From Aureococcus anophagefferens (lineage: Eukaryota > Sar > Pelagophyceae > Pelagomonadales > Pelagomonadaceae): a stretch of DNA of 64,000 nucleotides. The position numbers and the translations under genes are program-made. Numbering within the stretch: the stretch's first letter is position 1; every line of letters starts with the position of its first letter. The stretch covers positions 196,282-260,281 of the forward strand of contig NW_008705574.1 in NCBI RefSeq assembly GCF_000186865.1, read 5' to 3'. The notes under the pieces were generated by a model that was given only the letters and a program-made list of their open reading frames with translations, was not told where the DNA came from and ran no database searches. Below are positions 1 to 64,000 of this stretch, in pieces.

Positions 1-1665
1 CGGACGGCCGTGGGCCTCGCGGTGTCCTGCGCCGCCCTCGTCCTCCTGGGGCGCTACCTCTCGTCGCTGGGCTCCGACGCGGCGGCGACGAAGCGCGCCG
101 TCGCGACGGGGCGGCTCATGAACAAGCTCAAGTCCAAGTGGCGCATCATGTTCGTCGCGTTCCAGATCGTCTACTCGCAGCCCGCGCTGCTGCCGGACGT
201 GTCGCTGCCGTCGGTCCTGGAAAAGCAGTACCACGCGCTCGACGTCGTCTCGCTGGACTTTGGCGCCCTCTTTCCCTTCCGCTGTAGTGGCGGCGACTAC
301 TACACGGGCCTGCTCTTCGCGACGCTCGCGCCGATCGTTTTTGTAGCGGCGGTCTCCGGGGCCACGTGGCTCCGGTCGCTCCTCTCCGACCGCGTCGCCG
401 ACGGGGACGTCAAGGTCGCGACGGCCACCGTCGGCGTGCTCGTCACCTACGTCGTGCTCCCCGCCGTGACGACGGAGATTTTAGCGATCTACGACTGCGA
501 GGCGCTCGACGGCCGCGACGGCGACGGCGCGACGCCCTACATGCGCCACGACTACAGCGTGCGCTGCGAGGGCTGGACCTACGCCTGCTACCGCGCCTAC
601 GCGACGCTCATGATCCTCGTCTGGCCCCTGGGCGTGCCCCTGCTCTACTTCGCGCTCCTCTACCGGCGGCGCCGCGACATCGACCCGCCCGTGAGCGTCG
701 CCCCTACGGACGAGAAGCGGCGCCGCGCGTCGATGACGCGGAGCGCGGCGGGCGACGTGCACCGCGTCTACGGCCGGGCGTCGGCCGACGAGGGGCGCAT
801 GCTCGACGAGGACAGGCTCGCGCTGCAGATCCGGACGCGCGGCGCGAACCCGGACGTCCGCCACCTCACGCTGCTCTTCGCGCCCTACGAGCCGCCGCGG
901 TGGTGGTGGGAGGTCATGGAGATCGCCCGGCGCCTGCTGTCGACGTCGTTCTTGCTGCTCTTCCACGGCTCGAAGACGCGCATCTTCTTCGCGGTCGTCG
1001 TGTCACTCGCGTCGATCAAGCTCTACAGCACGTACGCGCCGTTCATCTCCGACTCCGACGACCTGCTGGCGGAGTCGCTCCAGTGGCTCGTGACGCTGAA
1101 CCTGCTCTGCCTGCTGATGATCGAGACCGCGGGCACGGACGCGCCCGTGGCCTACGCGTCGATCGCGCTGCAGGTCGCGGCGCTTTTGGGGTCGTTGGCC
1201 TTGGTCCGCGCGGACCTCGCGCGCGAGCGGCGGCTGCTGAACCAGGCCATGGGCGAGTTCGCCGAGGAGATGAGCCACGCGCGGGAGAAGATGCACGAGC
1301 TCGAGGCGTCCGCGCGCCAGGGCCTCGACGCCGCGACGGAAAGCGTGCGGCATCGGGAAAAGTCGATCGAGCGCGCGCTCGCCGCGCTCCGCGTCGGCAG
1401 CGTCGCCGGCAAGCGGGAGCCACCGCCGGGGCTCGAGGTCGCGCCCCAGCCCCGGAGGACCGTCGACTTCGAGGCGCTCGTCGACGACGACGACGATTCG
1501 GATTCGGACGACGACCCCGCGCCGATCGTCGTCGGCGGCGTCGACGACGCGGCGGCGGGCGACGGCGTCGAGTGCGGCGCCTGCGGCCTCTTCCTGACGC
1601 CTGAGAAGGCCGTCGTCGACGCGCCGGAGCACTTTCCGGATCCCGACGAGGACCTCGAATTGTGA
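1..1665 (+). CDS. Multi-pass membrane receptor-like protein, C-terminal part (5' end outside window)
   Basis: The open frame runs in from the left edge with no start, so the N-terminus is missing. What is visible begins in a membrane helix, followed by a basic stretch (LMNKLKSKWRIMFV), several hydrophobic segments, a Cys-containing loop and a segment LMILVWPLGVPLLYFALLY, then a cytoplasmic tail with a coiled coil, an Asp-rich run and a CGACG pair. The same order of motifs occurs in the C-terminal half of the gene at 26461-30181 (KLRLKWKSLFV, ILMVFVWPVGAPALLYAL), so the two are paralogues and this gene probably also had an extracellular sensor and Cys-rich region. Plasma-membrane location and signalling are inferred; no ligand can be named. 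Confidence 0.7.
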   Translation, partial: RTAVGLAVSCAALVLLGRYLSSLGSDAAATKRAVATGRLMNKLKSKWRIMFVAFQIVYSQPALLPDVSLPSVLEKQYHALDVVSLDFGALFPFRCSGGDYYTGLLFATLAPIVFVAAVSGATWLRSLLSDRVADGDVKVATATVGVLVTYVVLPAVTTEILAIYDCEALDGRDGDGATPYMRHDYSVRCEGWTYACYRAYATLMILVWPLGVPLLYFALLYRRRRDIDPPVSVAPTDEKRRRASMTRSAAGDVHRVYGRASADEGRMLDEDRLALQIRTRGANPDVRHLTLLFAPYEPPRWWWEVMEIARRLLSTSFLLLFHGSKTRIFFAVVVSLASIKLYSTYAPFISDSDDLLAESLQWLVTLNLLCLLMIETAGTDAPVAYASIALQVAALLGSLALVRADLARERRLLNQAMGEFAEEMSHAREKMHELEASARQGLDAATESVRHREKSIERALAALRVGSVAGKREPPPGLEVAPQPRRTVDFEALVDDDDDSDSDDDPAPIVVGGVDDAAAGDGVECGACGLFLTPEKAVVDAPEHFPDPDEDLEL

Positions 1666-1720
1666 TTCTAACGTGGTTGAACTTGATGTTGAAGGGGCTG
1701 CTCGATCGAGGCTCTCCGTG

Positions 1721-2662
1721 ATGGCAGCCCTGGATGTCGACGACGAGCAAGACGAAATGAGCAAACTGATCGGGAGACGTGCGCAGGACCACTCGGCCCA
1801 GGAATACTCGGCCGAATCGATCGCGCGCGCCCTCGCGCTCCGCGTACGCCCGACGGACGTCTTCATCGCCACAGCACCAAAGACGGGCACGACCTGGCTC
1901 ACGATGATCTGCCACCAGCTGCGAACGGGCGGCGATTTGGATTTCGACGACATCTACCAGGTCGCGCCGTGGCCGCCGCTGAGCTGGGACCTGGGCATCG
2001 ACTGCGACGCGGACCAGGTCGCGGCGCCGCGGCTCTTCAAGACGCACCAGCGCCTGTCCGCGCAGCCGCGCGGCGGGCGCTACCTGTGCACCGTGCGCGA
2101 CCCGGCGACGACGATCCTGAGCTGGTGGCACTTCCTGGGACCCGCGGGCAAGGACATCCCACCGCTGCGCAAGTACGCGAACGCGTCCCAGTTCTGCCGC
2201 GACGAGCGCTTCGTCGTGGAGAACATGCGCTTCGGCGCGGCGCTCTGGGACTACTACGTCGAGTTCTGGGAGTGCCGGCACCTCGAGAACGTGCACGTCG
2301 TGGCGTTCGAGGACCTCGCGGAGGACGCGCGCGGCGCGCTGCCGGCCCTCGCGGCGTTCATGGGCCTGGAGCGGTCGCCGGCGGAGCTCGACGCCGTCGC
2401 GGCGCTCTGCACGCGCGAGGCCATGCGCGCGCACGCGTCCAAGTTCGACGAGTCCTGGACCTACCGACGGCTCGTCGACGTCGGCCGCATGGGCGACCCG
2501 TCGTCCTACGTGCCGTCGGACCGCGTGCGCGCCGCGACGGCGGCGACGGCGGCCTTGGACGCGGACGCGGTCGCGTTCCTGGACCGGCAGTGGGCCGAGC
2601 GGGTCGCGCCGCGCACGGGCCACCCGACCTACGCGGACTTCGCGGCCGCGCTCCCGCGGTAG
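1721..2662 (+). CDS. Cytosolic-type sulfotransferase
   Basis: Protein of 313 residues of the sulfotransferase_1 family, which transfers sulfate from PAPS to a hydroxyl or amine. The 5'-phosphosulfate loop is seen as PKTGTTWL near residue 50, and a VRDP motif matching the 3'-phosphate-binding region lies near residue 126. There is no signal peptide or membrane segment, so a soluble enzyme is likely. The first ATG at 1721 follows a stretch with two TTGAA motifs (about 1677-1695). It converges with the HD-domain gene at 2680, with 17 bases between stops. The acceptor is unknown. A second, unrelated-looking sulfotransferase domain is in the fusion gene at 59599. Confidence 0.85.
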   Translation: MAALDVDDEQDEMSKLIGRRAQDHSAQEYSAESIARALALRVRPTDVFIATAPKTGTTWLTMICHQLRTGGDLDFDDIYQVAPWPPLSWDLGIDCDADQVAAPRLFKTHQRLSAQPRGGRYLCTVRDPATTILSWWHFLGPAGKDIPPLRKYANASQFCRDERFVVENMRFGAALWDYYVEFWECRHLENVHVVAFEDLAEDARGALPALAAFMGLERSPAELDAVAALCTREAMRAHASKFDESWTYRRLVDVGRMGDPSSYVPSDRVRAATAATAALDADAVAFLDRQWAERVAPRTGHPTYADFAAALPR

Positions 2663-2679
2663 TGCTGGTATGTTAACGT

Positions 2680-4158
2680 CTAGCACTCGACGGAGGTACA
2701 GGGGGTCAGCGACACGGCGGGGTAGGCGTCGAGGTGGCTCTGCCACCGGGCGTGGTGCGTGTCGAGGTCGATGTTGAGCTTGGCGAGCGTGGAGTCGAGG
2801 TTCGCGGGCGCGGCCGCGGTCATGAGCGCGTGCTTCGCGGCGCCGGGCAGCAGCCGCCCGCCGCGCGGCAGGAGCGTCTCGGAGCACAGGTCCAACAGCT
2901 CCTCGTAGATGGGCGTGATGCCCATCTTCCGCGCCAGGGGCACGAAGAGCTCCATCGTCTCCTTGGCCTTCTTGATGCGCTTCTCCTTGGGCATGTGCTT
3001 GAGCGTGCGCATGTTGTGGAGGCGGTCCGCGAGCTTCACCAACGCGACGCGCCACTCGGAGGACATGGACAACAACAGGTCCTGCTGGTTTTCACTATCG
3101 ATCTGCGTCGGCTCGTCGGTGACGCCCTCGACGATGCGCGCGACGGCGTCGCCGAAGGTCGCCTGGATGTCGCCCACGGTCAGCGACGTGTCCTCGACCG
3201 TGTCGTGGAGCAGCCCGGCCATGACCGTGTCCGCGTCCATGCGGAGATCCGCTAACACGGTCGCGACGTGCAGGGGGTGCACGATGAAGGGCTCGCCGGA
3301 CTTGCGGCGCTGGTGCTCGTGGGCCCTGGCCGCGACGTCCACGGCCTCCCGTAGCGCGCCGCCGGCGTGGCGGTCGAGGTAGGCCGCGGACTGGTAGAAG
3401 CGCGCGACGTGGCCGTTCGGCGCCGGGTACGTCGGCACCTCGCCGAAGACGGGCGCGACGGGCTTCGAGAGCATGAAGCGGCCGGGGCCCTTGACGTGGA
3501 GGAGGCTCAGGGGCGCCATGGAGAAGGCCGACGCGCCGGAGACGACCGCGAACGCGACCGTCGCCGCGAGGAGCCGCGCGTCGACGGACACCGTCGTCCG
3601 CCGCCGCCGGTCGCACGTGATGGACACGCGGCGCCGGCGGCCGGACGCGGCCCCGCCGCAGGTCTCGAGGGCCACGCTCAAACGCGGGATGGCCGACGGC
3701 GCGAGGTGGGCGGGGAGCCAGTCGGTCTTGACCTCGATGAGCTTCCGGCGCGGCGTCGACAAGACGAAGTCCGACTCGGCCCGGGGGCGCCGCGGGATGG
3801 GGCGCTGCGTCACGGGGGGCGACATGGTCGCCGCCCGGGGCCGCTTCACGGCCGTGCCGTGGGGGCCCGTCTCCATGGGGCGGCTCCGGCTCCGGAACCG
3901 GGCCGTATCCGCGCAACTGTTTAAGATCCGGTTCTCCTCGGCGATGAGCGCGGCCTCGCGGGCGGCCTCGGCGAGGTCGGGGTCCGAGCGGTCGTCGGCG
4001 TGGGGGGCGGGGCACATAAAGTGGGCCGGGGGGCTCTCGACGCGAGGTAGCAGCAGCGCCGACGCTGATGTCGGCGACAGCGCGGCTCGGCTCCGCCGGC
4101 GGGATGAGTTCAACGACTCAGGAGTTCTCACCGCCAACTCATTTGGTGTTTGCATCAT
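2680..4158 (-). CDS. RelA/SpoT-homologue HD-domain hydrolase, probably plastid-targeted
   Basis: The C-terminal half (about residues 255-430 of 492) is an RSH-type HD phosphohydrolase domain: VHPLHVATVL, LLHDTVEDT and LADRLHNMRTL carry the metal-binding H..HD..D residues. In this family the domain hydrolyses (p)ppGpp. No RelA/SpoT synthetase domain or ACT/TGS region follows, so it looks hydrolase-only. A hydrophobic stretch ending in GASAFS near residue 205 resembles the plastid signal cleavage motif of red-lineage algae, yet about 200 Arg-rich residues precede it; the true start may be internal or the N-terminus may be mis-modelled. ATG 4158 is used because it is the first in-frame ATG pair and follows a CTTCAAG motif; ATG 4017 is an alternative. 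Confidence 0.7.
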   Translation of the reverse strand: MMQTPNELAVRTPESLNSSRRRSRAALSPTSASALLLPRVESPPAHFMCPAPHADDRSDPDLAEAAREAALIAEENRILNSCADTARFRSRSRPMETGPHGTAVKRPRAATMSPPVTQRPIPRRPRAESDFVLSTPRRKLIEVKTDWLPAHLAPSAIPRLSVALETCGGAASGRRRRVSITCDRRRRTTVSVDARLLAATVAFAVVSGASAFSMAPLSLLHVKGPGRFMLSKPVAPVFGEVPTYPAPNGHVARFYQSAAYLDRHAGGALREAVDVAARAHEHQRRKSGEPFIVHPLHVATVLADLRMDADTVMAGLLHDTVEDTSLTVGDIQATFGDAVARIVEGVTDEPTQIDSENQQDLLLSMSSEWRVALVKLADRLHNMRTLKHMPKEKRIKKAKETMELFVPLARKMGITPIYEELLDLCSETLLPRGGRLLPGAAKHALMTAAAPANLDSTLAKLNIDLDTHHARWQSHLDAYPAVSLTPCTSVEC

Positions 4159-4371
4159 GCTTGAAGCGACTTTGCGCGCAAATCCAAGGCCTCGCAAAAC
4201 GCCCGAGTCGGGGGTCACCCAACAGTCGCAAAGCAGCAAGCACCGCGCACGCGAGCAGAGCCGCGACATCACCGCCGCCCACGCGACGCGGCGACGGGCT
4301 ACCGCGCCGGCCCGCCGGCGTGGCAGCACCAGAACACACTATACACATTACTGTACACTTCTACACAACCT

Positions 4372-5071
4372 TCAGAAGAAGAAGGCCGACATGATCCCGA
4401 AGTTCGACGAGGCCTCGGCGCAGACCGCCTTCGCGGGCCACGGCGTCGAGTCGCCGCCGTCCGAGTCGCGGTCGTCGCCCGGCAGCCGCACGCGGAGCTC
4501 GAAGCGGTCGTAGCCGAGGGACACCACAGGCAGCGAGAACTCGAGGATCTCGCGCCACGTGTCCGGCTGGAAGCGCAGGCGCAGGCCGACGAGGAGCCAG
4601 GCGTGCAGGTCGTGCTTGACGCGCGAGAGGATGGCGTTCTTGGCGCAGCTGGCGTCGCACTTGCCGCGGTGCGCCGTGTCCTTGGACTCGCAGCACTTGG
4701 CCATGCCTAGACGAGCGACGGATCAGATTCGGACGCAAAACGTCGGACGCCGCGTCGATACAGGCCCACTCGACGACCTTGCGCGAGCGCTCCTGCACGG
4801 TCCAGGCGCAGGCGTCGCGGTCCTCGCACACGGCGTCCAGCCGCGCGTGGACGGCGTCCAACTCGAGGGCGCTCGCGTCGCGGTCTGCGGTGCGCTCCGC
4901 GTGGTCCCACATGCGCGCCCGGACGCGGCGCGTCTCCTGCTCGCGGACGCGCGCCTCCTGCTCCGCCTTGAGGCGCGACACGGCCGCCTCCGCCGCGGCG
5001 AGCGAGCGCTCCTCGCTTAGCAGATTGAGCCACGCGCCGGCGCTGTCGAAGCCGCGGTCGCGGCGGAGCAT
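4372..5071 (-). CDS. Unknown coiled-coil protein, two exons
   Basis: Two exons, 5071-4762 and 4706-4372, join across a 55-base GT-AG intron to give 214 residues. Splicing turns the codon T|GC into Cys and keeps the frame (VEWAC then MAKCCE). The N-terminal half is Glu/Ala/Arg-rich with heptad-like spacing (residues 20-95, coiled coil). The C-terminal half has four clustered Cys (KCCESKD, KCDASCAKN) and then a mixed alpha/beta region. No family is recognised. It ends in three Phe before the stop. Confidence 0.6.
4707..4761 (-). other. 55-base spliceosomal intron
   Basis: It begins GTATCG and ends TCTAG on the minus strand. Removing it joins two otherwise out-of-frame open frames. No flanking duplication is seen, so it is not of the introner type. 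Confidence 0.6.
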
Positions 5072-5347
5072 CCTTGGATTTTCTTCGGCCGCGAAGACGA
5101 CGACGGCGCGACGATTTCCGCGAGAGCTTTGGCTTTGGAGCGCAGCGCAGTTGCTGTGGCAGCTTTTGATGTCTACACGGCGCGAGTCGAGGCGTCGGCG
5201 GGTCGCGCGGATTGCGTTCGCGCGCGCGCCGAAGGTTTGGACGCCAGGCCGGCGTCACTTTTCTTGAGGGCCACTCGTTCGAAATCTGTTCGACAAGACG
5301 CCTACGGCATCTTGCCCCTGCCGGGGGGGCTTGCCTGCGGCGCGGCG

Positions 5348-5371
5348 AGAGCGCGCCCTTCGGGCGCGCTC
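5348..5371. repeat. Perfect GC hairpin with TTCG loop
   Basis: Arms GAGCGCGCCC and GGGCGCGCTC flank TTCG, an unusually stable loop. It lies upstream of the gene at 5697 and could sit in its 5' UTR or near its promoter; function unknown. Confidence 0.6.
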
Positions 5372-5484
5372 GCGCGAGCTGAGCCACTCATTCCCGTGTC
5401 AATGCTTCCCTCTGCACCGCTCGCGCGACGACAGCCATTTAATTTCCGTACGGCGGGGGAACCGGCACGCACAACTCACGCATC

Positions 5485-5491
5485 TATATAT
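5485..5491 (+). promoter_or_regulatory. TATA-like box
   Basis: TATATAT inside CATCTATATATGGAAG is the clearest TATA-type sequence in the window, about 205 bases before the ATG at 5697. Its use as a promoter is inferred from position and from the GC-rich background. Confidence 0.4.
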
Positions 5492-5696
5492 GGAAGCCAA
5501 GGGCAACCGGTTCTGGAGCTCATTTTTTTGGGCAGCCTCGATTCTCAGCTCTCGATGTCCGAACAAAAAGCAAAGCACAGCGACGCAGGTCGCAATAGGC
5601 ACGACGAGTCGTCGATCCTCGGACGCGTCGTCGCGGCGGCTCATCCTCCAGCAGCTCGCCGCCTCTCGCGCGAGCTACGAGGTCCGCTCCTCGAGG

Positions 5697-6200
5697 ATGG
5701 GATGCAAGCCGAGCAAGAGCGATGGGGTGCCGCAGAGCAGCAAGCCCATGTACGACGACGACTCGCTCTACTGCCTCGAACCGCGCCTCAGGTCGCGGCG
5801 CGTCTTCTCGCCGCGGCGCCAGGTCGCCTCGCGCATCAAGTCGCCGCGCTACGCCGTCGTGCTCGAGGAGACCAAGGAGGACCCGTCGCTCGCGCCGTGC
5901 CCGCCCGCGCCGCGGCCGAGCCCGGCGACGCCGCGCCCGCCCGACGTCGTCGAATTCTCGTCCGTGTCGCCGTCGATGATCGGCTGCCGCGCGAAGCAGC
6001 TCGTCGAGCTCCAGGTGCCCTGCGACTTCGAGCACGAACACGGCGAGGAGCGCGAGTACGCCGCGGCGCGCTACGAGCACAAGAGCGGCGACGGCGACTT
6101 CGAGAGCGACTTCGACTCGGAGGAGTCCCACGAGGCGCCGTCGCTGGCGTCCTACCTGGGCTGCCTCATGCTCGAGGACAACGTCAGCGACGAACCCTAG
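5697..6200 (+). CDS. Small acidic protein with N-terminal myristoylation/palmitoylation signal
   Basis: 167 residues beginning MGCKPSKSDG: Gly2, Cys3 and Ser6 fit a dual N-myristoyl/S-palmitoyl membrane anchor. The middle is rich in Arg, Ser and Pro (SRRVFSPRRQ, RIKSPRY, Pro-rich run). The C-terminal third is acidic (DGDFESDFDSEESHE). The pattern suggests an inner-membrane-attached adaptor or signalling peptide; no domain is recognised. The start is fixed by the MGC signal; the upstream open frame lacks such a feature. Confidence 0.6.
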   Translation: MGCKPSKSDGVPQSSKPMYDDDSLYCLEPRLRSRRVFSPRRQVASRIKSPRYAVVLEETKEDPSLAPCPPAPRPSPATPRPPDVVEFSSVSPSMIGCRAKQLVELQVPCDFEHEHGEEREYAAARYEHKSGDGDFESDFDSEESHEAPSLASYLGCLMLEDNVSDEP

Positions 6201-6283
6201 GAAGACGCCCACATAACACACTGCTTGCTTACGAGGCACGTCCCACTGGCGCGCTTGAGAGACCTACACTGTCCTCCTTAATA

Positions 6284-8438
6284 TCACACCTCGAAGGTCG
6301 GCGCCGCGGCGCCGGACGCGGCCTCGTAGGGCAGGCGGAGGAGCGGGTTCTCGTAGGCGTCGCCTTCGCGCTTCTCGAGGAGCCAGTCGATGGAGCCCCG
6401 GCACGCGTCCCGCGCCTCGGCGTAGACCGCCGCGCAGGCGTCCTTGTCGTTGGCGTCGAGGTCCGCCGTGGCGATGACCTCGCCGAAGCCTACCAAGCAC
6501 GTCGGTGACGATTTCTCTTCGTTTTCCCGGTCAAAATCTCTCGAAAATCGTCACGGCCGCAGGACGCTGGGTAGAGCGGAAGTAGAAGCGCCGCGGCGAC
6601 GTCGGCACCGCGAGCGGGAACCGGAAGTCCTCGGTGCGGTTCGCCCAGCGCCGCGCGGACGGCACGCTCCCCGCGCCGCCGCGCGGGTCGCCCCCGCCGA
6701 AGGGCAGCGGCTCGTCCTTGTCGCGAACGATGGTGAAGGAGTCCGCCGCGCCGACGGCGCCGAAGGGGACGATGTCCGCGCCGTATTTCGCCGCGACGCG
6801 CACGAAGTCCGTCTCCTCGGGCCAGAAGAGCTCGTAGGCCTCGTCCTTGCCGTGGTTCGACTCGCGGACGCCGCCGGGGAAGAGGAGCACCGCCGCGTCG
6901 TCGCGCATGAGGCGCACGAAGTTCCGGGGGGAGACTTCCACGGCTCCGAAGGTCTGGAAGAACGTGTCGCCGTCCGCCGCGCCGCCGAAGCCCCGGTCGC
7001 GCCGCGGCGAGTCGGCCCAGTAGTCCGGCGGCCCCGTCGCGTCGCTTTGCGCGTCGAAGAGGCTCAACGCGTTCGTCGCGACGGGGTGCGCCAGGCCCCG
7101 GATCAGCAGGTCGCGGTCGCGGAGGAACTCGTCCACTAAGACGCTCAGGTCGATGCCGAAGAGCTGGTGGTTCCCGACGAGCAGCACGGGTCGCTTTTCG
7201 CCCGGCGACGGCACGCCCTTTAGTCCACGGACGGGGACCCCGTCGACCGTGGAAAAGAACACGGGCGACACGAGGCGCCGGAACGGGTCGACGACCGATC
7301 GCCGCGACTCCGCGATCTGCGTCGCGTTCGGAGGAACGAAGTCCTCGACCCAGCGCTGGGCCCTGCGCGCCTTGGCGGCGCGGAGCTCCGCGCCGTAGAG
7401 CGCCCGGGACCTGCGGAGCGCCACGGAGAGATCCAGCCGCTCGTCGTCGACGAGGACCGCGTGGCCGCCGCGCGGCAGGATCACGGCCTCGCAGCCGGGG
7501 AGCTCCTTCTTCAGGCGCGCGGCCTCGGAGGCCGACGGCAGGAAGCGGTCGTCGCCGCCGGCGAGCACGAGGACATTCGTGCCGCGTTCCTTGCGTCTTA
7601 ACCGCCAGAGCTTGCCGTTCGTCGCCGCGCAGCCCCGGTCGAGCCAGTCGACGACGCGGTGCCTCAAAGTCTGGGGCGGCACGAGCTCGCTCAGCGCCAT
7701 GGCGCCGCTCGCCGCGCGGGCCAGGTTGGAAAAGTCCAGGTTCTGCCACTCCGCCGCGGACTTCTCGACCATCGACGCGTCCGACGCCAGCAAGCCGACG
7801 GCCGCGGCGATCGCGCCCGCGTAGGGAATCCCCGCGGGCGCCGCGCTCACGACGCGCCCGCCGACGGACCAGGACGTGCGGTCGTAGGACGTCGCGGGGT
7901 TCACGAGGGCGATGCCCCGGAGCTCGTGCAACGCGTTCTCGTCGCTCAATTCGACGGCGGCCGCCGTCGCGAACAAGCCTCCGAGCGACTCGCCGACGAT
8001 GATTCCGTCGCGCAGTTCCCGCTTCGCGAAGGTCGCGATGGACGTCACCACGTCCTCGAAGGGCGTTCTCCCGTCGCCGTCGAGCCAGCAGTACCAGGGA
8101 TCGAAACCGTTCGCCGCGAGGCGCGGGAGCTGGGCCGCGATGGAGATGCCGCGGAATTCGATGCCCGGCACGTAGAGCAGCGGCTCGCCGGTGGACGCGT
8201 TGTCGTAGCGCGTGAAGCGCAGGCTGCCGATGCGCAGCGTCTCCTCCGACGTGACCATGGACTCGGCGGCGTCGATCATCTCCGTCGTGGACGTCGTCGT
8301 GGCCAGAGCCGGCGTCAGGCGCGGTCGGAAGGCGCGCGACGGCTTCGACACAGGCCGCATCGCGCGGTGCGTCTGGAAGCCGGTCGCGGTGGCGAGAAGC
8401 GCGAGGGCGGTGCAGAGGCGCGTTGCATTGGGACGCAT
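6284..8438 (-). CDS. Phytyl-ester-synthase/diacylglycerol-acyltransferase-like protein, plastid
   Basis: Two exons, 8438-6566 and 6489-6284. An N-terminal alpha/beta hydrolase half carries the nucleophile motif GESLGG and a late GGHAVLVDD histidine; a lysophospholipid-acyltransferase-like half has GNHQLFGIDL and LLFPGGVRES. This order is that of plant PES1/PES2, which make phytyl esters and triacylglycerol in plastids from free phytol and fatty acids. The N-terminus is a signal peptide ending ATGFQ, fitting plastid import. The second exon (DWLLEKREGDAYENPLLRLP) matches the end of the family and is needed to complete it; the splice choice (GTCCTG ... GGTAG) is the best in-frame one. Confidence 0.8.
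6490..6565 (-). other. 76-base intron
   Basis: Inferred from the need to join FYFRSTQ to RFGEVIATADL of the acyltransferase; GT-AG, phase 1. The exact donor is the least certain part. Confidence 0.5.
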
Positions 8439-8597
8439 CGTCGCTGAGCGGCGCGTCGAGCTGGCGCAAAGTCGTCGGACCATAAATGCCAGCGCAGAGG
8501 CAACATGTCGACCTTTCGCTTTTGTTGACCCATACCCAAGCCCTTGAGCTGCCCGCCTCGCGCTGCCCGGCGCGCACAGCGCCCCGCGAAAAGTCGA
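8439..8597. promoter_or_regulatory. Shared promoter between two divergent acyltransferase genes
   Basis: 159 bases separate the starts of the PES-like gene (minus) and the LPLAT gene (plus). A shared bidirectional control region for lipid remodelling is inferred. No clear box beyond CATAAA at 8480 is visible. Confidence 0.4.
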
Positions 8598-9863
8598 ATG
8601 GCGCCGAAGATCATACCCGTCGCGACACCTCCGCCGCCGAAGAAGGCGCCGCCGACGAAGGCGAGCATCTTGAAGGCCATCGAGACGAAGGCCTACCCGC
8701 TCGAAGACAACGCCCAGGACCCGCTGGCCAACTCCACCGTTTCGCTCTTCGCGGACCCGCTCCGCGCGGCGACGACTCTCGCTATTTTGCCGCTCGCCAT
8801 GATCCGCATCTGCGTCTTCCTCGTCGTCTTCGTCTCCTCGGGCCTCTGCGCGTCCGCGGCGTCGTGCTGCCCGCTCCGGTCTCCACCCCAGCGCTTCTTC
8901 CTCTGGGCGTCGATGCGCCTCGTCCGCGCGGGCCTCTTCTGCCTCGGCTTCCACCGCGTCGAGGAGCGGGGCGCGCCGGCGCCGCGGGACGCCGCGCCGA
9001 TCCTCGCGTCGAACCACACGTCGTTCGTCGAGGCGTTCTATCTGACGCAGCGGTTCCGCGCTTCCGGCATGGCCGCGGAGGACCTGGCGGCGATCCCCAT
9101 GGTCGGCAACGTGCTGCGGGCGTTGGAGTTCGTGCTCGTCGACAAGGCCGACGACGCGTCGCGGCGCAAGGCCGCGGAGGATTTGAAAAAGTCGCTGAGC
9201 GACCCGAGGGCGCCGCGGTTCCTCGTGTTCCCCGAGGGCCAGACGAACAACGGGTCGAGGCTCATCGGCTTCAAGGACGGCGCCTTCCGCCTCGGCCACG
9301 GCGTCCAGCCCGTCGCCGTGACCTACGAGCCCCGGGGCGACTACGACCCGACGAACATCGACGACATGGTCTGGCACTTCGCGCGCCCGTGCTTCGATCT
9401 CTCGCACCCGATGCGCGTGACCTACCTCCCGGCCATGGCGCCGGAACCCGGCGAGGCGCCGCGGGCCTTCGCCCAGCGCGTGCGCGGCGCGCTCGCCGCG
9501 GAGCTCGGCAGGGCGACGACGGAGCACGGCCACGACGACGAGCGGCTCCAAAAGCACGCGCGGCGCCGTTTGAAGCGGCGCGGCGCGCCCCGGGAGGACC
9601 TCGCCTGGGCGCTCCCGGAGACGGGGCTCGTGAAATCCGTGCTGGGCTTCGACTGCGCCGAGGCCAAGGGCCACCTCGACGCGTACCTCGACGCGCGCGC
9701 CGCGGCCGTGGAGAAGCCGGCGTCGTACTTTGCCGCGCTGCGGGCGGACGAGAGCCCCGAGCTCCGCGCCCTCTACGACCGCCGCGTCGCCGCGGGCCTC
9801 GGGCCCACGCTCACGTTCCGCGAGTTCCTCGCGGCCAAGGCGCTCGCGAGGGAGGGGGGCTAG
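8598..9863 (+). CDS. Lysophospholipid acyltransferase (LPCAT/LPEAT type)
   Basis: 421 residues. Hydrophobic segments occupy about residues 50-115; the acyltransferase signature NHTSFVEAF follows near 138, with Glu where most members have Asp after the His. FPEGQTNNGS near 213 is the substrate-binding motif typical of LPCAT/LPEAT. The family reacylates lysophospholipids from acyl-CoA in the ER. The C-terminal 120 residues are charged and resemble no domain I recognise. The ATG at 8598 is chosen as the first in frame before the Pro/Lys-rich N-terminus. It is divergent from the PES-like gene. Confidence 0.8.
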   Translation: MAPKIIPVATPPPPKKAPPTKASILKAIETKAYPLEDNAQDPLANSTVSLFADPLRAATTLAILPLAMIRICVFLVVFVSSGLCASAASCCPLRSPPQRFFLWASMRLVRAGLFCLGFHRVEERGAPAPRDAAPILASNHTSFVEAFYLTQRFRASGMAAEDLAAIPMVGNVLRALEFVLVDKADDASRRKAAEDLKKSLSDPRAPRFLVFPEGQTNNGSRLIGFKDGAFRLGHGVQPVAVTYEPRGDYDPTNIDDMVWHFARPCFDLSHPMRVTYLPAMAPEPGEAPRAFAQRVRGALAAELGRATTEHGHDDERLQKHARRRLKRRGAPREDLAWALPETGLVKSVLGFDCAEAKGHLDAYLDARAAAVEKPASYFAALRADESPELRALYDRRVAAGLGPTLTFREFLAAKALAREGG

Positions 9864-10047
9864 CGTAAGTGCTAACGTGGCAGTCGTACTACCGAGCTCG
9901 GCGCCGGCGTGCGTTGTCTGGAAGGCGACGCCCCGACGTCGCCGACGCACAGCGGAGCGTTACTCCTCGCCAGGTCGTTTTTTTGTGTGGGGCGAATCGA
10001 GCGCGAGAGCGGGGGATGGTCGGATTTCCGAGGGCGCCGGCGTCCCC

Positions 10048-59341: not shown

Positions 59342-59598
59342 GCCGCCTCCTCCCGCGCCTCCGAGTCCGCCCGCCCTCGCCCACCACCTTGATCTCGTGC
59401 TTTCGCCCCGATCGAAGGCGTTATCCGCCTAAGACTCCCCTGATGCACACGGGGCCCTTCGCAAGGCTGGGTGGCTTTCTTGAACTTCAAGCGCGCCTTC
59501 ATGATCAACCGTGACCCTGGAAGCGCGATCACGATGAGACGATAAAAAAAAGCATGAGGCGGGCAGCCCGCGAATGACTTGCTTTGCATTTGTCTAAC

Positions 59599-62500
59599 AT
59601 GTTTCGCGCGCTGTGGCTCCTCGGCGCGCTCGAGGCGGCGCGCGCGAGCGAGACGGCGAGCGAGACGTGCTCCGTGGAGCATTGGATGTCCACCTTCGAG
59701 GCCGGCGGCACGCTGCCGCTGCACTGCTGCGGCGCGGAGATCGGGCCCGTGCGCGGCTGGTACGGCATTTTGCGCAAGTGCGAGCCGGGCTCCGCCTGCG
59801 AGGCGAACGCCTGCGACGCCATGGAGCGCTCCGGGTGGGCGCCGGCCGGCTACCTCTCGCAGTTCGGGCAGGACCAGTGGCTCCGCGAGGCCATCTTCGG
59901 CGGCCGGCGCGACGGCGTCTTCGTCGAGCTCGGCGGCTACGACGCCGTCGTCGCGTCGAACACGTGGTTCTACGAGCGGTGCCGGGGCTGGACGGGCGTC
60001 GTGATAGAACCGCAGGCGCCGCGGCACGCGGGCTTCCTCCGGCTCCGGCCGAACGCGTCCCTGGCGCCGCACTGCGTCTCCGACGTGCCCGGCGAGCAGG
60101 TCACCTTCGTCTCCCTGCCCGGCGGCACGGGCCTGGCGGGCGTCGAGTCGGCGAGCCTCGAGGACGCGATCGACCGCCTCGACAAGCGCGGCCGGGCGGC
60201 CATCGTGAAGGACACGAAGACCTGCCACCGCGTCGCGTCGATCCTCGCCCGTCGCCGGGTGACCCACGTCGACTTCTTCAGTCTGGACTGCGAGGGCTGC
60301 GAACTCAAGGCCGTCAGGTCCATCGACTTCGACGCCGTGACCGTCGACGTCTTCACGATCGAGCAGAGCGCCGCGGGCGTCGCGGCGGCCAAGTTCCTCG
60401 TCGACGAACGGAACTACGTCAACGTGGGCCGCCTCAGCGCCGACGTCGTCCTCGTGCGCGGCGATTTACGCATGCCCTGCGCCGCCCGCGCGCCCCTGCC
60501 TTCGCGCTTCGCGAAACTGCCGGCGTTCCCCGACGCGCAGAAGCTCGCCGCGGCGGCCGCGGCCGAGGGCTCGGGCCACTCGCGGGACGCCGTCGAACGC
60601 GCGCGGGAGATCGCGGGCCCCCTGGACCGCCCCGTCGCGTACGACGCCGTCGACCGGCCGAATCTGGTGCTCGTGGTTTTAGACGACGCGTCGCCGGACA
60701 TGTTCCCCGACGCCTACCCCGAGTACGCCTCCGAGGCCTGGCAGTCGGCGCGCTACGGGTCCCCGAAGACGCCGTCCATCGCCGCGCTCGCGCGCGAGGG
60801 CGCCGCGTTCCGCGCGGCCTACGCGCCCGCGCTGTGCGGTCCGTCGCGCGCGTCCCTGCTCACGGGCCGCTACCCGTCCGAGACGGGCTACCTCCACAAC
60901 CAGCTGCGCATGGCGTCGCCGGCGGCGGCGGCGGCCCACGCGCTCCTGCCGGCGCTCCTCAAGGGCGCGGGCTACGCCACGGCGATGGCGGGCAAGTGGG
61001 GCGTCGGCCCCTCGAAGCAGGGCATCCCCGGCGACCTGGCGGCGGCGCGCTTCGACACCTACCTCATGCACGACGCGGGCCTCTCGGAGCACAACGCCAA
61101 AGACTGCGGCGGCGACGCGCACGTCGACGCGCGCGTCGCCAACCCGCTCGCGACGACGACGTACCTCAGCCGCTACTGGGCGCCGTGCTACCGGCGCTTC
61201 CCGCCGGACCCGGCGACGGACTCGCCCCTGGGCTACGTGCGGACGACGCGCGCGGACTTTGGGCCGGATTTGGAGGAACAATTCGTCGCGACCTTCCTCG
61301 GGAAACAGACGCCGGCGACGCCCTTCTTCCTCTACTACCCGACTGTCTTAGTCCACGAGACGGAGAACCGGACGCTGCCGCGCGCCGACGCGCCCGGCGA
61401 CAACGGCCTCAAGCCGACGACGGACCGCCTGCGGCCCGGCGGCTACTGGCTCGCGCGCATGAAGCGCCTCGTGGAACGCGCGGACGTCGCCGTCGGCAAG
61501 CTGCGCGGCGCGCTCGCGGCGAACGGCCAGCGGCCGTCGACGATCGTCTGGGTCGTCTCCGACAACGCCGCGGCCTACCGGGGCAAGGGCCGCGGCGTCG
61601 AGCGCGGCGCGTCCGTCGTGTCCGTCGTCGCGGGCCCCGGCGTCCGCGCGCGCGGCGCCGTCGACGGTCTCATGGACTCGACGTGCCTCTTCCCCACGCT
61701 CCTCGACTTCGCGTCCGTGACGCACGACCGGCCGCGGTCCCTCGCCGCCTACCTGCGCGGCGCCCGCAACGACGTCGGCTTCCGCTTCGTCGCGGCGGAG
61801 ATCGGCGGCTCGCGCGTGATCCGCGCCAACGGCACGCTCCTCGAGGCGTCCAACGGTCTCCTGGGCGTGGCGCCGGGGCGGCTCTACGCCACGACCGGCT
61901 TTTCGCCGGCCGACGGTGTCGGCTACGAGCGGTGCCTCGCGGGCGACGAGTCGCGCGCGTGCGAGGAGGCGCGTCTGGACGTCGCGCGCGCGGCCGCGGA
62001 GCTCCCGGAATCGCCCCAACGCGGCGACGCCTACTTTGCGACGCCCGCGGGTCAAAAGTTCCTCGCGTTCCACGAGTTCGAGGCCATGGAGCACCTTTCC
62101 TCGCCGCCCTGGTACAAGCGGAAGGACGAGAGGAGCGACCCGGCGTGCCCGTCGCCGCTCGGGTTCTGCCCCCGGAACAACTCCGCGGGCCGCGCCGTCG
62201 ACTTCATGAACACGTACGGCCTGCCCGTGCTGCGGCCCGAGGCCGACGCGGACCGCGCGCTGCTCGTCCTCGTCGCGTCGCCGCGCGTCGGGTCGACGCT
62301 CCTGGAACGGCTGCTGGACGCGGCCCCCGACACGACGATGCACAACGAGTGCTTCCACTGGAACGACACGCAGTTCGGCGCCTGCGGCCCGAACGGCGGC
62401 AAGTACTCCCACTTCTCGCCGAAGCTCCGGGGCGCGTGCCCGCCGGCGGCCGCGTTCGCGGCGCGCCACGAGACGCCGGCCCCGCTCCTCGCGTGGGCCA

Positions 62501-63075
62501 CGGCCGCGGCCCGCACGGCCGCGAGCGGCTTCAAGCTCATGCCGGGCCACATCCGCGGCGTGAACAACGTCGGCGCGCCGCGGCCGGGCGCGCTCGTCGA
62601 CGCGGTCCGCGCCGCGGGCCCGTTCGCCGCGGTCGTCTTCGTCACGTTGCGGCGCCGGTGCGCGGTGGCCCAGTTCCTGTCGCTGCAGCGGGCCATGAGG
62701 ACGGGCGGCTGGGGCCAGTCGACGGCGCCGTCGTCGGCGGTCGCCGTCGACGTGGCCGCGCTCGAGGCGCACGTCGCGGGCGAGGCGCTCTACGAGCGCA
62801 CCGTCGCCTCCGCGCTCGCGACCCTACAAAAGGACGCGCGGAACGTCGCGGCGCTCGACCTCTTCTACGAGGACGACCTGTCGTCGCCCGCCGCCGCCGA
62901 GGACGCCTGGCGCCGCGTGCGCGCCGCGCTGCGCCTCCCGATGGTCGACGCGACGCCGACGATGGCCGCGCTCCACGCGCGGCACCGCCGGCGCCGCGCG
63001 CCCCTCCGGGAGGCCGTGTCCAACTGGGCCGCCCTCCCCGCGGCGCTGCGGGACGCGTGTACATCTGAGAATTAG
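59599..63075 (+). CDS. FkbM-type methyltransferase / sulfatase / sulfotransferase fusion protein
   Basis: 1158 residues in one uninterrupted frame. A signal peptide (MFRALWLLGALEAARA) is followed by Cys-containing residues. Residues about 84-285 are FkbM-like (FGQDQWLREAIFGG, DGVFVELGGYDA, GVVIEPQA, VDFFSLDCEGCELKAV). Residues about 353-770 are a sulfatase (NLVLVVLDDASPD; CGPSRASLLTGRYP with formylglycine Cys 413; SDNAAA at about 655). Residues about 885-1158 are a sulfotransferase (VASPRVGSTLLERLL PAPS loop at about 892, MHNECFHW). The sulfatase GKWH motif reads GKWGVG (465-470). Probable substrate: sulfated glycan in the Golgi or outside. The stop overlaps the convergent gene. Confidence 0.85.
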   Translation: MFRALWLLGALEAARASETASETCSVEHWMSTFEAGGTLPLHCCGAEIGPVRGWYGILRKCEPGSACEANACDAMERSGWAPAGYLSQFGQDQWLREAIFGGRRDGVFVELGGYDAVVASNTWFYERCRGWTGVVIEPQAPRHAGFLRLRPNASLAPHCVSDVPGEQVTFVSLPGGTGLAGVESASLEDAIDRLDKRGRAAIVKDTKTCHRVASILARRRVTHVDFFSLDCEGCELKAVRSIDFDAVTVDVFTIEQSAAGVAAAKFLVDERNYVNVGRLSADVVLVRGDLRMPCAARAPLPSRFAKLPAFPDAQKLAAAAAAEGSGHSRDAVERAREIAGPLDRPVAYDAVDRPNLVLVVLDDASPDMFPDAYPEYASEAWQSARYGSPKTPSIAALAREGAAFRAAYAPALCGPSRASLLTGRYPSETGYLHNQLRMASPAAAAAHALLPALLKGAGYATAMAGKWGVGPSKQGIPGDLAAARFDTYLMHDAGLSEHNAKDCGGDAHVDARVANPLATTTYLSRYWAPCYRRFPPDPATDSPLGYVRTTRADFGPDLEEQFVATFLGKQTPATPFFLYYPTVLVHETENRTLPRADAPGDNGLKPTTDRLRPGGYWLARMKRLVERADVAVGKLRGALAANGQRPSTIVWVVSDNAAAYRGKGRGVERGASVVSVVAGPGVRARGAVDGLMDSTCLFPTLLDFASVTHDRPRSLAAYLRGARNDVGFRFVAAEIGGSRVIRANGTLLEASNGLLGVAPGRLYATTGFSPADGVGYERCLAGDESRACEEARLDVARAAAELPESPQRGDAYFATPAGQKFLAFHEFEAMEHLSSPPWYKRKDERSDPACPSPLGFCPRNNSAGRAVDFMNTYGLPVLRPEADADRALLVLVASPRVGSTLLERLLDAAPDTTMHNECFHWNDTQFGACGPNGGKYSHFSPKLRGACPPAAAFAARHETPAPLLAWATAAARTAASGFKLMPGHIRGVNNVGAPRPGALVDAVRAAGPFAAVVFVTLRRRCAVAQFLSLQRAMRTGGWGQSTAPSSAVAVDVAALEAHVAGEALYERTVASALATLQKDARNVAALDLFYEDDLSSPAAAEDAWRRVRAALRLPMVDATPTMAALHARHRRRRAPLREAVSNWAALPAALRDACTSEN

Positions 63076-64000
63076 TGGCACGCGCGCTTCACGCGGCGTA
63101 TGCGGTCGTGCTGCTTCGACGGCGCCAGGACCTCGAAGCCGCCGAGGCACGCGGGGGGCTCGCCGACGCGCCGCGGCGCGGCCCCCGGGAGCAGCGCGTT
63201 CAGGTCGCCGGCGAGGTGGGCCTCGCGCGCGTCCGCGGCCGCGGCCGCGTCGGCCGCGGGCGCGTCCGCGCGGGCCGACCGCCGCGGCGCCGCCAGGAGC
63301 CGCTCGCCCGTCTCCGCGGCCTTGAGCCGCTTGTCGAAGACGTCGACCAAGGCGTCGCGGTCGTAGGGCACGGGGTCCACGAGGTTGATGACGTCGCGGA
63401 TGCACCGCTCCTTGACGTCCGCGTCGAGCGACGTCTCGCGCGCCATCGACGGCGACGCGTTGACCTCGATGAGCCAGCACCGCGAGTCCGCGTCGATGAG
63501 GACGTCGTAGCCGAAGAGTTCGAAGGAGTTGGGCTGGTGCGGGATGGAGTCCTCGACGCAGACCAGCGATTTCAGGACCAGCTCGCGGACGCCGTCCCAG
63601 ACGCGCGCCTCGTCGAACGTCGGGTCCTCGCGGCGAAGCCGCCGCCAGAGAAAGTCCAACGAGCATTTCGTGCCCCCGGCCTCGTCGGGCCCGGCGCCGG
63701 CCAGGGGCCCGTAGAGCTCGCCCTTCTCCTGGCCGCCGTGCTTTTGAATTGAAGCGTTTGTCAGATGCACGAATTTGTCGCCGTTGTCGTCGCCCGGCGC
63801 CGAAAAGGGCTTCGTCGCCACGCGCGCGAAGCCCTCCCGGTAGAGGAACGCCTCCAGGGGCGCGAAGGACGTCACGAGCACGTACAACCGTAGATCGAAC
63901 TTGTGGCCGCCGAGGAGCCGCGGCCGGTCGAGGTACGCCTGCACCACCACCGGGTCCGCGTACGTGACGTCCTCGATGGACGACACCACGCTAATCCCGC
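63072..64000 (-). CDS. Tubulin tyrosine ligase-like protein (5' end outside window)
   Basis: Frame open to the right edge, so the N-terminus is missing; the visible part starts GISVVSSIEDV. TTLL motifs: PRLLGGHKFDLRLYVLVTS, KFVHLTNASIQKHG, FELFGYDVLIDADSRCWLIEVNASPS (ATP/Mg site with Glu and Asn). The family adds Tyr, Glu or Gly to tubulin tails, mostly in axonemes. C-terminal 80 residues are Ala/Arg-rich. The subfamily cannot be settled from this part. Confidence 0.8.
   Translation of the reverse strand, partial: GISVVSSIEDVTYADPVVVQAYLDRPRLLGGHKFDLRLYVLVTSFAPLEAFLYREGFARVATKPFSAPGDDNGDKFVHLTNASIQKHGGQEKGELYGPLAGAGPDEAGGTKCSLDFLWRRLRREDPTFDEARVWDGVRELVLKSLVCVEDSIPHQPNSFELFGYDVLIDADSRCWLIEVNASPSMARETSLDADVKERCIRDVINLVDPVPYDRDALVDVFDKRLKAAETGERLLAAPRRSARADAPAADAAAAADAREAHLAGDLNALLPGAAPRRVGEPPACLGGFEVLAPSKQHDRIRRVKRACH

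Follow-up and report, generated by a model that had tools for sequence, protein, structure and literature searches.

An Aureococcus anophagefferens gene encoding FkbM methyltransferase, sulfatase and Stf0-type sulfotransferase domains in one open frame

A 64,000-nucleotide stretch of the genome of Aureococcus anophagefferens (contig NW_008705574.1, positions 196,282 to 260,281, hereafter the window) contains an open reading frame (ORF) at 59599-63075 on the forward strand, whose 1158 codons run without an internal stop and encode an FkbM-family methyltransferase, a sulfatase and a Stf0-type sulfotransferase domain, in this order. The presence of the three domains in a single frame was confirmed, and comparison with a collinear relative indicates that the trio very probably forms one genuine polypeptide and is no accident of assembly. 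It is a new combination of known families, and by sequence comparison the architecture is conserved in at least two organisms. Reasoning from the sequence, we hypothesize that the fusion protein (P0001), the product of one intronless gene, is a secretory-pathway enzyme that edits the sulfation and methylation of a glycan at the cell surface, a reading that we favour tentatively and rate as falling a little short of probable.

The window is GC-rich (68-77% in 2-kb steps) and a wrong frame on the plus strand is open for 1151 codons over the same bases, so that frame length by itself is weak evidence and a control on the other frames is important. Neither this 1151-aa frame nor an antisense ORF of 474 aa matched any Pfam family at E ≤ 0.1. 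When the whole of P0001 was scanned, each of the three domains exceeded its Pfam gathering threshold: FkbM (E = 2.7e-7, 31.3 bits against 22.7), sulfatase (E = 3.7e-29, 102.4 bits against 25, with positions 1-299 of the 301-position profile matched) and Stf0 (E = 4e-7, 30.2 bits against 22). With the protein cut into three pieces, the E-values were 3.2e-8, 3.9e-30 and 3.2e-8, respectively. A phosphodiesterase match (PF01663, residues 390-436, 25.6 bits against a cut-off of 23) also passes and overlaps the sulfatase, and a Sulfotransfer_3 match below its cut-off (18.7 of 27 bits) overlaps the Stf0 region. The frame starts at the first ATG (59599) after an in-frame TGA at 59575-59577. Its GC content at codon positions 1, 2 and 3 is 0.712, 0.554 and 0.961, and the third-position value stays at 0.911-1.0 across overlapping 90-codon segments. 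At the domain junctions it is 0.944 and 0.933 (first junction) and 0.922 and 0.989 (second), within the range found inside the domains.

A protein search with P0001, which is itself a cluster of three members (longest contig 4131 bases), scored 7989 candidates, of which four passed E ≤ 1e-5: P0001, the NCBI model of the same locus (P0002), a protein of 1282 aa (P0003) and a protein with a sulfatase only, which covers 12% of P0001. P0003 is collinear with P0001 along 98% of the latter, and 600 of the alignment's 1230 positions are identical (49%). Over aligned residues, the N-terminal 86 residues are 47.7% identical, FkbM 59.2%, the sulfatase 60.4% and Stf0 53.2%, and the FkbM domain of P0003 matches PF05050 at 45.8 bits. 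In the genome that carries the window, the only full-length match to P0003 is the fusion gene, the other 32 matches being single-domain pieces; P0003 therefore comes from another organism. The linkers are conserved at this distance, as one polypeptide predicts, and so are 23 of the 25 cysteines; it is on the evidence of this independent collinear protein that the trio is very probably one polypeptide. The earlier note on this DNA had proposed a single polypeptide with the domains in this order, and had regarded the lack of any related fusion, together with errors at the junctions, as fatal to that proposal. The order is the same in P0003 and the coding signal at the junctions is normal, so the proposal stands. 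A merger of two or three neighbouring genes through an assembly error or a missing stop is very improbable: the conserved single-chain order and linkers, the unbroken third-position GC and the gapless alignment described below all speak against it, although the gene model P0002, with its omitted stretches, its frame shifts and its lack of a Stf0 match, is a point in its favour.

This published model (window 59599-62732, 903 aa, named 'sulfatase [Aureococcus anophagefferens]') agrees letter for letter with the window frame over long blocks, one of them of 420 residues at 59863-61122, which places the window in this species or a very near strain. Four in-frame stretches are absent from the model (59749-59862, 61471-61530, 61918-62058 and 62266-62373); in other parts it moves into frames +1 and +2, and some of its short parts match no frame. 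Each skipped stretch starts with GT, ends with AG and has a length that is a multiple of three. Introns at these sites were considered and rejected. The fusion ORF contains 201 GT..AG pairs of 60-150 nt with such lengths, and the four stretches align to P0003 without gaps, with 21/38, 7/20, 17/47 and 20/36 residues identical (35-56%) compared to 544/1003 in the rest; two of the four are less similar to P0003 than average. Because of this alignment and of the abundance of such pairs, the stretches are probably coding sequence that was called intron, which supports the absence of introns noted earlier from the sequence alone. The last of them includes the PAPS (3'-phosphoadenosine-5'-phosphosulfate) loop and the Stf0 glutamate, and P0002 shows no Stf0 match in Pfam at E ≤ 1, consistent with its plain name. 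The frame changes in P0002 may stem from faulty assembly or annotation, and other Aureococcus gene models may be similarly affected.

Most of the catalytic residues expected of the sulfatase and sulfotransferase families are present (Table 1). The sulfatase residues listed there are identical in P0001 and P0003, and they may fill the metal, substrate and catalytic roles of sulfatases, although the His of the GKWH motif is Gly468. The formylglycine motif CxPxR reads C413-G-P-S-R417 in P0001 and C-A-P-A-R in P0003, and its cysteine would presumably have to be activated by a formylglycine-generating enzyme (FGE), of which the genome encodes a homologue (five matches, the best at E = 3.8e-71). The CxPSR motif, the Asp pair and the DN motif are common to the S1-family (formylglycine) sulfatases of PF00884, such as 1fsu, from which the fusion sulfatase differs by its place between a methyltransferase and a sulfotransferase and by a Gly in place of the GKWH His. 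In the Stf0 domain, R896, S899, E917, R1019 and S1028 are identical in P0001 and P0003 and are matched at the aligned sites of two paralogues; they presumably correspond to the PAPS loop, the catalytic Glu and the 3'-phosphate Arg and Ser. The PAPS loop, MHxExFH and R..Q..S...A...W motifs are those of Stf0/NodH-type sulfotransferases (PF09037; 1tex, 9vki), which are free enzymes, whereas the fusion Stf0 is the C-terminal domain of a large protein. The motifs PR.GS..L, MHxExFH and R...Q..S...A also occur in two stand-alone sulfotransferase frames of the same genome; compared with these, the fusion has extra short segments. In the FkbM domain, the SNT and SLDxEGxEL-like motifs are common to most of the aligned paralogues; the domain departs from the family (PF05050) in its Cys-rich N-terminal extension, its junction to a sulfatase and a score below the NCBIfam cut-off.

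Table 1. Features of the fusion gene in window coordinates, with residue numbers of P0001
Feature	Position	Strand	Evidence
Whole fusion ORF, 1158 aa and stop	59599..63075	+	Translation; third-position GC 0.961; collinear relative P0003
Hydrophobic stretch at the N-terminus, putative signal peptide, residues 1-17 (end point a guess)	59599..59649	+	Hydropathy, weak; strong counterpart in P0003
Cys-rich N-terminal region, conserved, residues 24-86	59668..59856	+	C24, C43, C44, C61, C67 and C72 kept in P0003
FkbM methyltransferase, Pfam stretch, residues 115-258	59941..60372	+	PF05050; FVELGGYDA (108-116) at start, SLDCEGCEL (228-236)
Linker 1, residues 291-352	60469..60654	+	52.5% identity to P0003 over 59 aligned residues
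Sulfatase, residues 354-705	60658..61713	+	PF00884; CGPSR (C413), D362, D363, R417, K466, H586, D655, N656 and K663 shared with P0003
Linker 2 / C-terminal part of sulfatase, residues 721-885	61759..62253	+	45.7% identity to P0003 over 162 aligned residues
Stf0-type sulfotransferase, residues 890-1044	62266..62730	+	PF09037; PAPS loop SPRVGSTLL (894-902), E917, R1019, S1028; profile matches PDB 9vki and 1tex
C-terminal part, residues 1045-1158	62731..63072	+	35.1% identity to P0003 over 114 aligned residues

Family scans of the whole genome (49.05 Mb in 86 contigs) found at least 33 FkbM, at least 95 sulfatase (PF00884) and at least 2 Stf0 stretches, counts that are lower bounds and in which pieces of one gene may be counted separately. 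The two Stf0 stretches were the fusion and one on contig C39; a third Stf0, on contig C23 (34.8 bits), came from the protein search. Frames from 10 of 15 fetched regions were scanned with Pfam, giving five FkbM, two Stf0 (one with weak matches to other sulfotransferase families), two sulfatases (with weak related matches) and one frame with no match; none of the 10 carried two of the three families together. Inspection by eye of the listed coordinates also found no other frame with two of the families, although introns might conceal one. Two sulfatases lie near the ends of very long open frames. One, in a six-frame scan, is in a frame of 15,563 aa (C13:177703-183900, positions 3704-9901 of the fetched region, minus strand), the last 2065 aa of which match no Pfam family besides sulfatase at E ≤ 0.001. 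The other is in a frame of 5,030 aa (C10:1173000-1182900, positions 2-4990 of the fetched region, plus strand), where the sulfatase is followed by a Sulfatase_C match under its cut-off (24.6 of 30.9 bits). Next to the fusion gene, a tubulin-tyrosine ligase-like frame (PF03133, 1.2e-53; window 63072-63998, minus strand) runs past the window end and lies tail to tail with it, with a 4-base overlap.

A profile search for further fusions retained five of 7993 candidates at E ≤ 1e-10, namely P0001 to P0003 and two sulfatase-only proteins. With the sulfotransferase part of P0003 as query, only P0003 itself was recovered among 7398 candidates; this silence says little, because even the window protein, a clear relative, was missed. 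These protein searches rest on shared words and limited candidate lists, so that rarer or more distant fusions may be missed. Searches with two short peptide patterns each matched 61 and 30 stretches in viral contigs and 70 and 24 in bacterial and archaeal genomes, with no confirmed relative in either set; such searches may pass over records close to the genome of the window. In the open-access literature we found no paper on an FkbM, sulfatase and sulfotransferase fusion, which does not imply absence in print, and none on a sulfatase-sulfotransferase fusion protein in an alga; for FkbM with sulfatase in an alga only unrelated work appeared, as judged by its listing. None was found on FkbM methyltransferases in 2-O-methylation of polysaccharides, a paper retrieved for sulfatases in A. 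anophagefferens deals in its passages with selenoproteins, and passages of one on sulfated polysaccharide in pelagophytes were of no use here. Given these limits of the searches, the rarity that the earlier note had ascribed to the trio is weakly supported and uncertain.

In the reading that we favour, the fusion protein would enter the endoplasmic reticulum (ER), the cell's FGE would convert C413, and the three domains would act in the Golgi lumen on one nascent cell-surface glycan. The sulfatase domain would take off a sulfate, the FkbM domain would methylate a hydroxyl using S-adenosylmethionine (SAM), and the Stf0 domain would add sulfate from PAPS at another position. We infer that the protein acts in the ER/Golgi, that each of the three domains is active, that the substrate is a glycan and that the steps follow this order. 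The retained cysteines and the N-glycosylation-type motifs (five in P0001 and seven in P0003) fit a secretory protein. PAPS and SAM are cofactors found inside cells or in the Golgi lumen and not usefully in sea water, and action on a nascent glycan in the Golgi is therefore more likely than digestion outside the cell. A secreted scavenging enzyme, which would open sulfated dissolved polysaccharides for uptake, might be expected in a genome with so many sulfatases, but its PAPS- and SAM-using domains would find no cofactor outside the cell, and we consider it improbable.

Comparison with solved structures on balance suggests sugar acceptors for the sulfatase and the sulfotransferase. The sulfotransferase profile had nine matches at E ≤ 1, the best being an 'LPS sulfotransferase NodH' (9vki, 6.7e-12; LPS, lipopolysaccharide) and the next Stf0 1tex (7.7e-4), for which no stretch was significant by itself. 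Among the best 60 of 70 solved sulfatase matches, N-acetylgalactosamine-4-sulfatase came first, and several carrageenan sulfatases ranked above the choline- and steryl-sulfatases. The FkbM-set profile, whose underlying alignment was loose and had long tails from paralogues, matched no solved structure. The same three activities could instead serve a small molecule, for instance an osmolyte, a sterol or a sulfated lipid. Trehalose is one of the small acceptors that Stf0-type enzymes can sulfate, and choline- and steryl-sulfatases do occur among the sulfatase matches, choline-sulfatase being also the best, sub-cut-off NCBIfam match; the ranking of the solved sulfatases and the LPS/Nod-type best match of the sulfotransferase make such a substrate unlikely, if somewhat less so than scavenging.

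Several observations weigh against a glycan-editing secretory enzyme. No more than two proteins with the trio are documented. FkbM falls under the NCBIfam cut-off (TIGR01444, 22.3 of 37.7 bits), as does, by far, the choline-sulfatase match of the sulfatase. The choline- and steryl-sulfatases among the weaker solved matches mean that a sugar substrate is not implied. The Stf0 of P0003 is below the Pfam cut-off (16.9 of 22 bits) and is omitted from that protein's precomputed domain list; the alignment with P0001 passes straight through the region. AlphaFold2 on the two-row alignment gave a pLDDT (predicted local distance difference test) of 29.3 and a pTM (predicted template modelling score) of 0.23, too low for the model to be of use. 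The signal peptide proposed in the earlier note is plausible and has a strong counterpart in P0003 (hydropathy 2.09), but in the window protein the N-terminal signal is weak (best 19-residue mean 0.54, best 9-residue mean 1.56). In the GKWxxG motif, classical sulfatases have a His (GKWH), which in the fusion sulfatase is replaced by Gly468, as also in P0003. At this site the genome's own sulfatases have three His, two Asn and two Gly among seven distinct frames, the fusion included (12 frames caught by the pattern, minus three duplicates and two lacking GKW; some sulfatase frames were not caught).

Such features would also suit a real fusion in which one or two domains are catalytic and the others bind glycan or hold the protein together. 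The weak family scores of FkbM in NCBIfam and of the P0003 Stf0, and Gly468 in both proteins, point that way. Yet P0001 and P0003, which are only about half alike, carry the same core motif residues in each of the three domains, and decay would be expected to hit these; we regard partial catalysis as rather unlikely, while giving it more weight than any other alternative to glycan editing by all three domains.

The editing enzyme would have a possible substrate at the surface of Aureococcus. According to passages of PMC10756674, the alga bears a coat of extracellular polysaccharide, which inhibits feeding by bivalves and probably hinders grazers. The cells carry a fibrous glycocalyx that is absent from virus-infected cells, and the Aureococcus virus AaV is reported to encode a carbohydrate sulfotransferase, a glucuronyl hydrolase and a pectate lyase that are expressed immediately after infection (passages of PMC5917014); the composition of the glycocalyx is said to need more work (passage of PMC7507832). 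As a further point against, 'sulfat' does not occur in PMC10756674 or PMC5917014, and the passages available from these and from PMC7507832 contained none on sulfation of the polysaccharide. Of the sulfated-mucilage editing suggested in the earlier note, the catalytic residues are largely borne out, and the activities, substrate and compartment are conjectural.

Heparan sulfate N-deacetylase/N-sulfotransferase is a bifunctional Golgi protein that likewise pairs a group-removing with a sulfate-adding domain on a nascent glycan. It differs in having a deacetylase and not a sulfatase, in lacking a methyltransferase and in the family of its sulfotransferase. One possibility, which we consider doubtful and clearly less likely than editing in general, is that the fusion protein relocates glycan marks, erasing a sulfate, capping a hydroxyl with methyl and writing a sulfate elsewhere on the same chain, and that this is kept in at least two organisms.

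To our knowledge, sulfate writers and erasers are normally separate proteins. The locus illustrates that a public gene model can hide a fusion architecture by omitting conserved coding stretches. A conserved fusion of writer, eraser and methyltransferase, if such it is, would offer a handle on how a marine alga patterns its surface polysaccharide, which in Aureococcus is discussed as a grazer defence (passages of PMC10756674).

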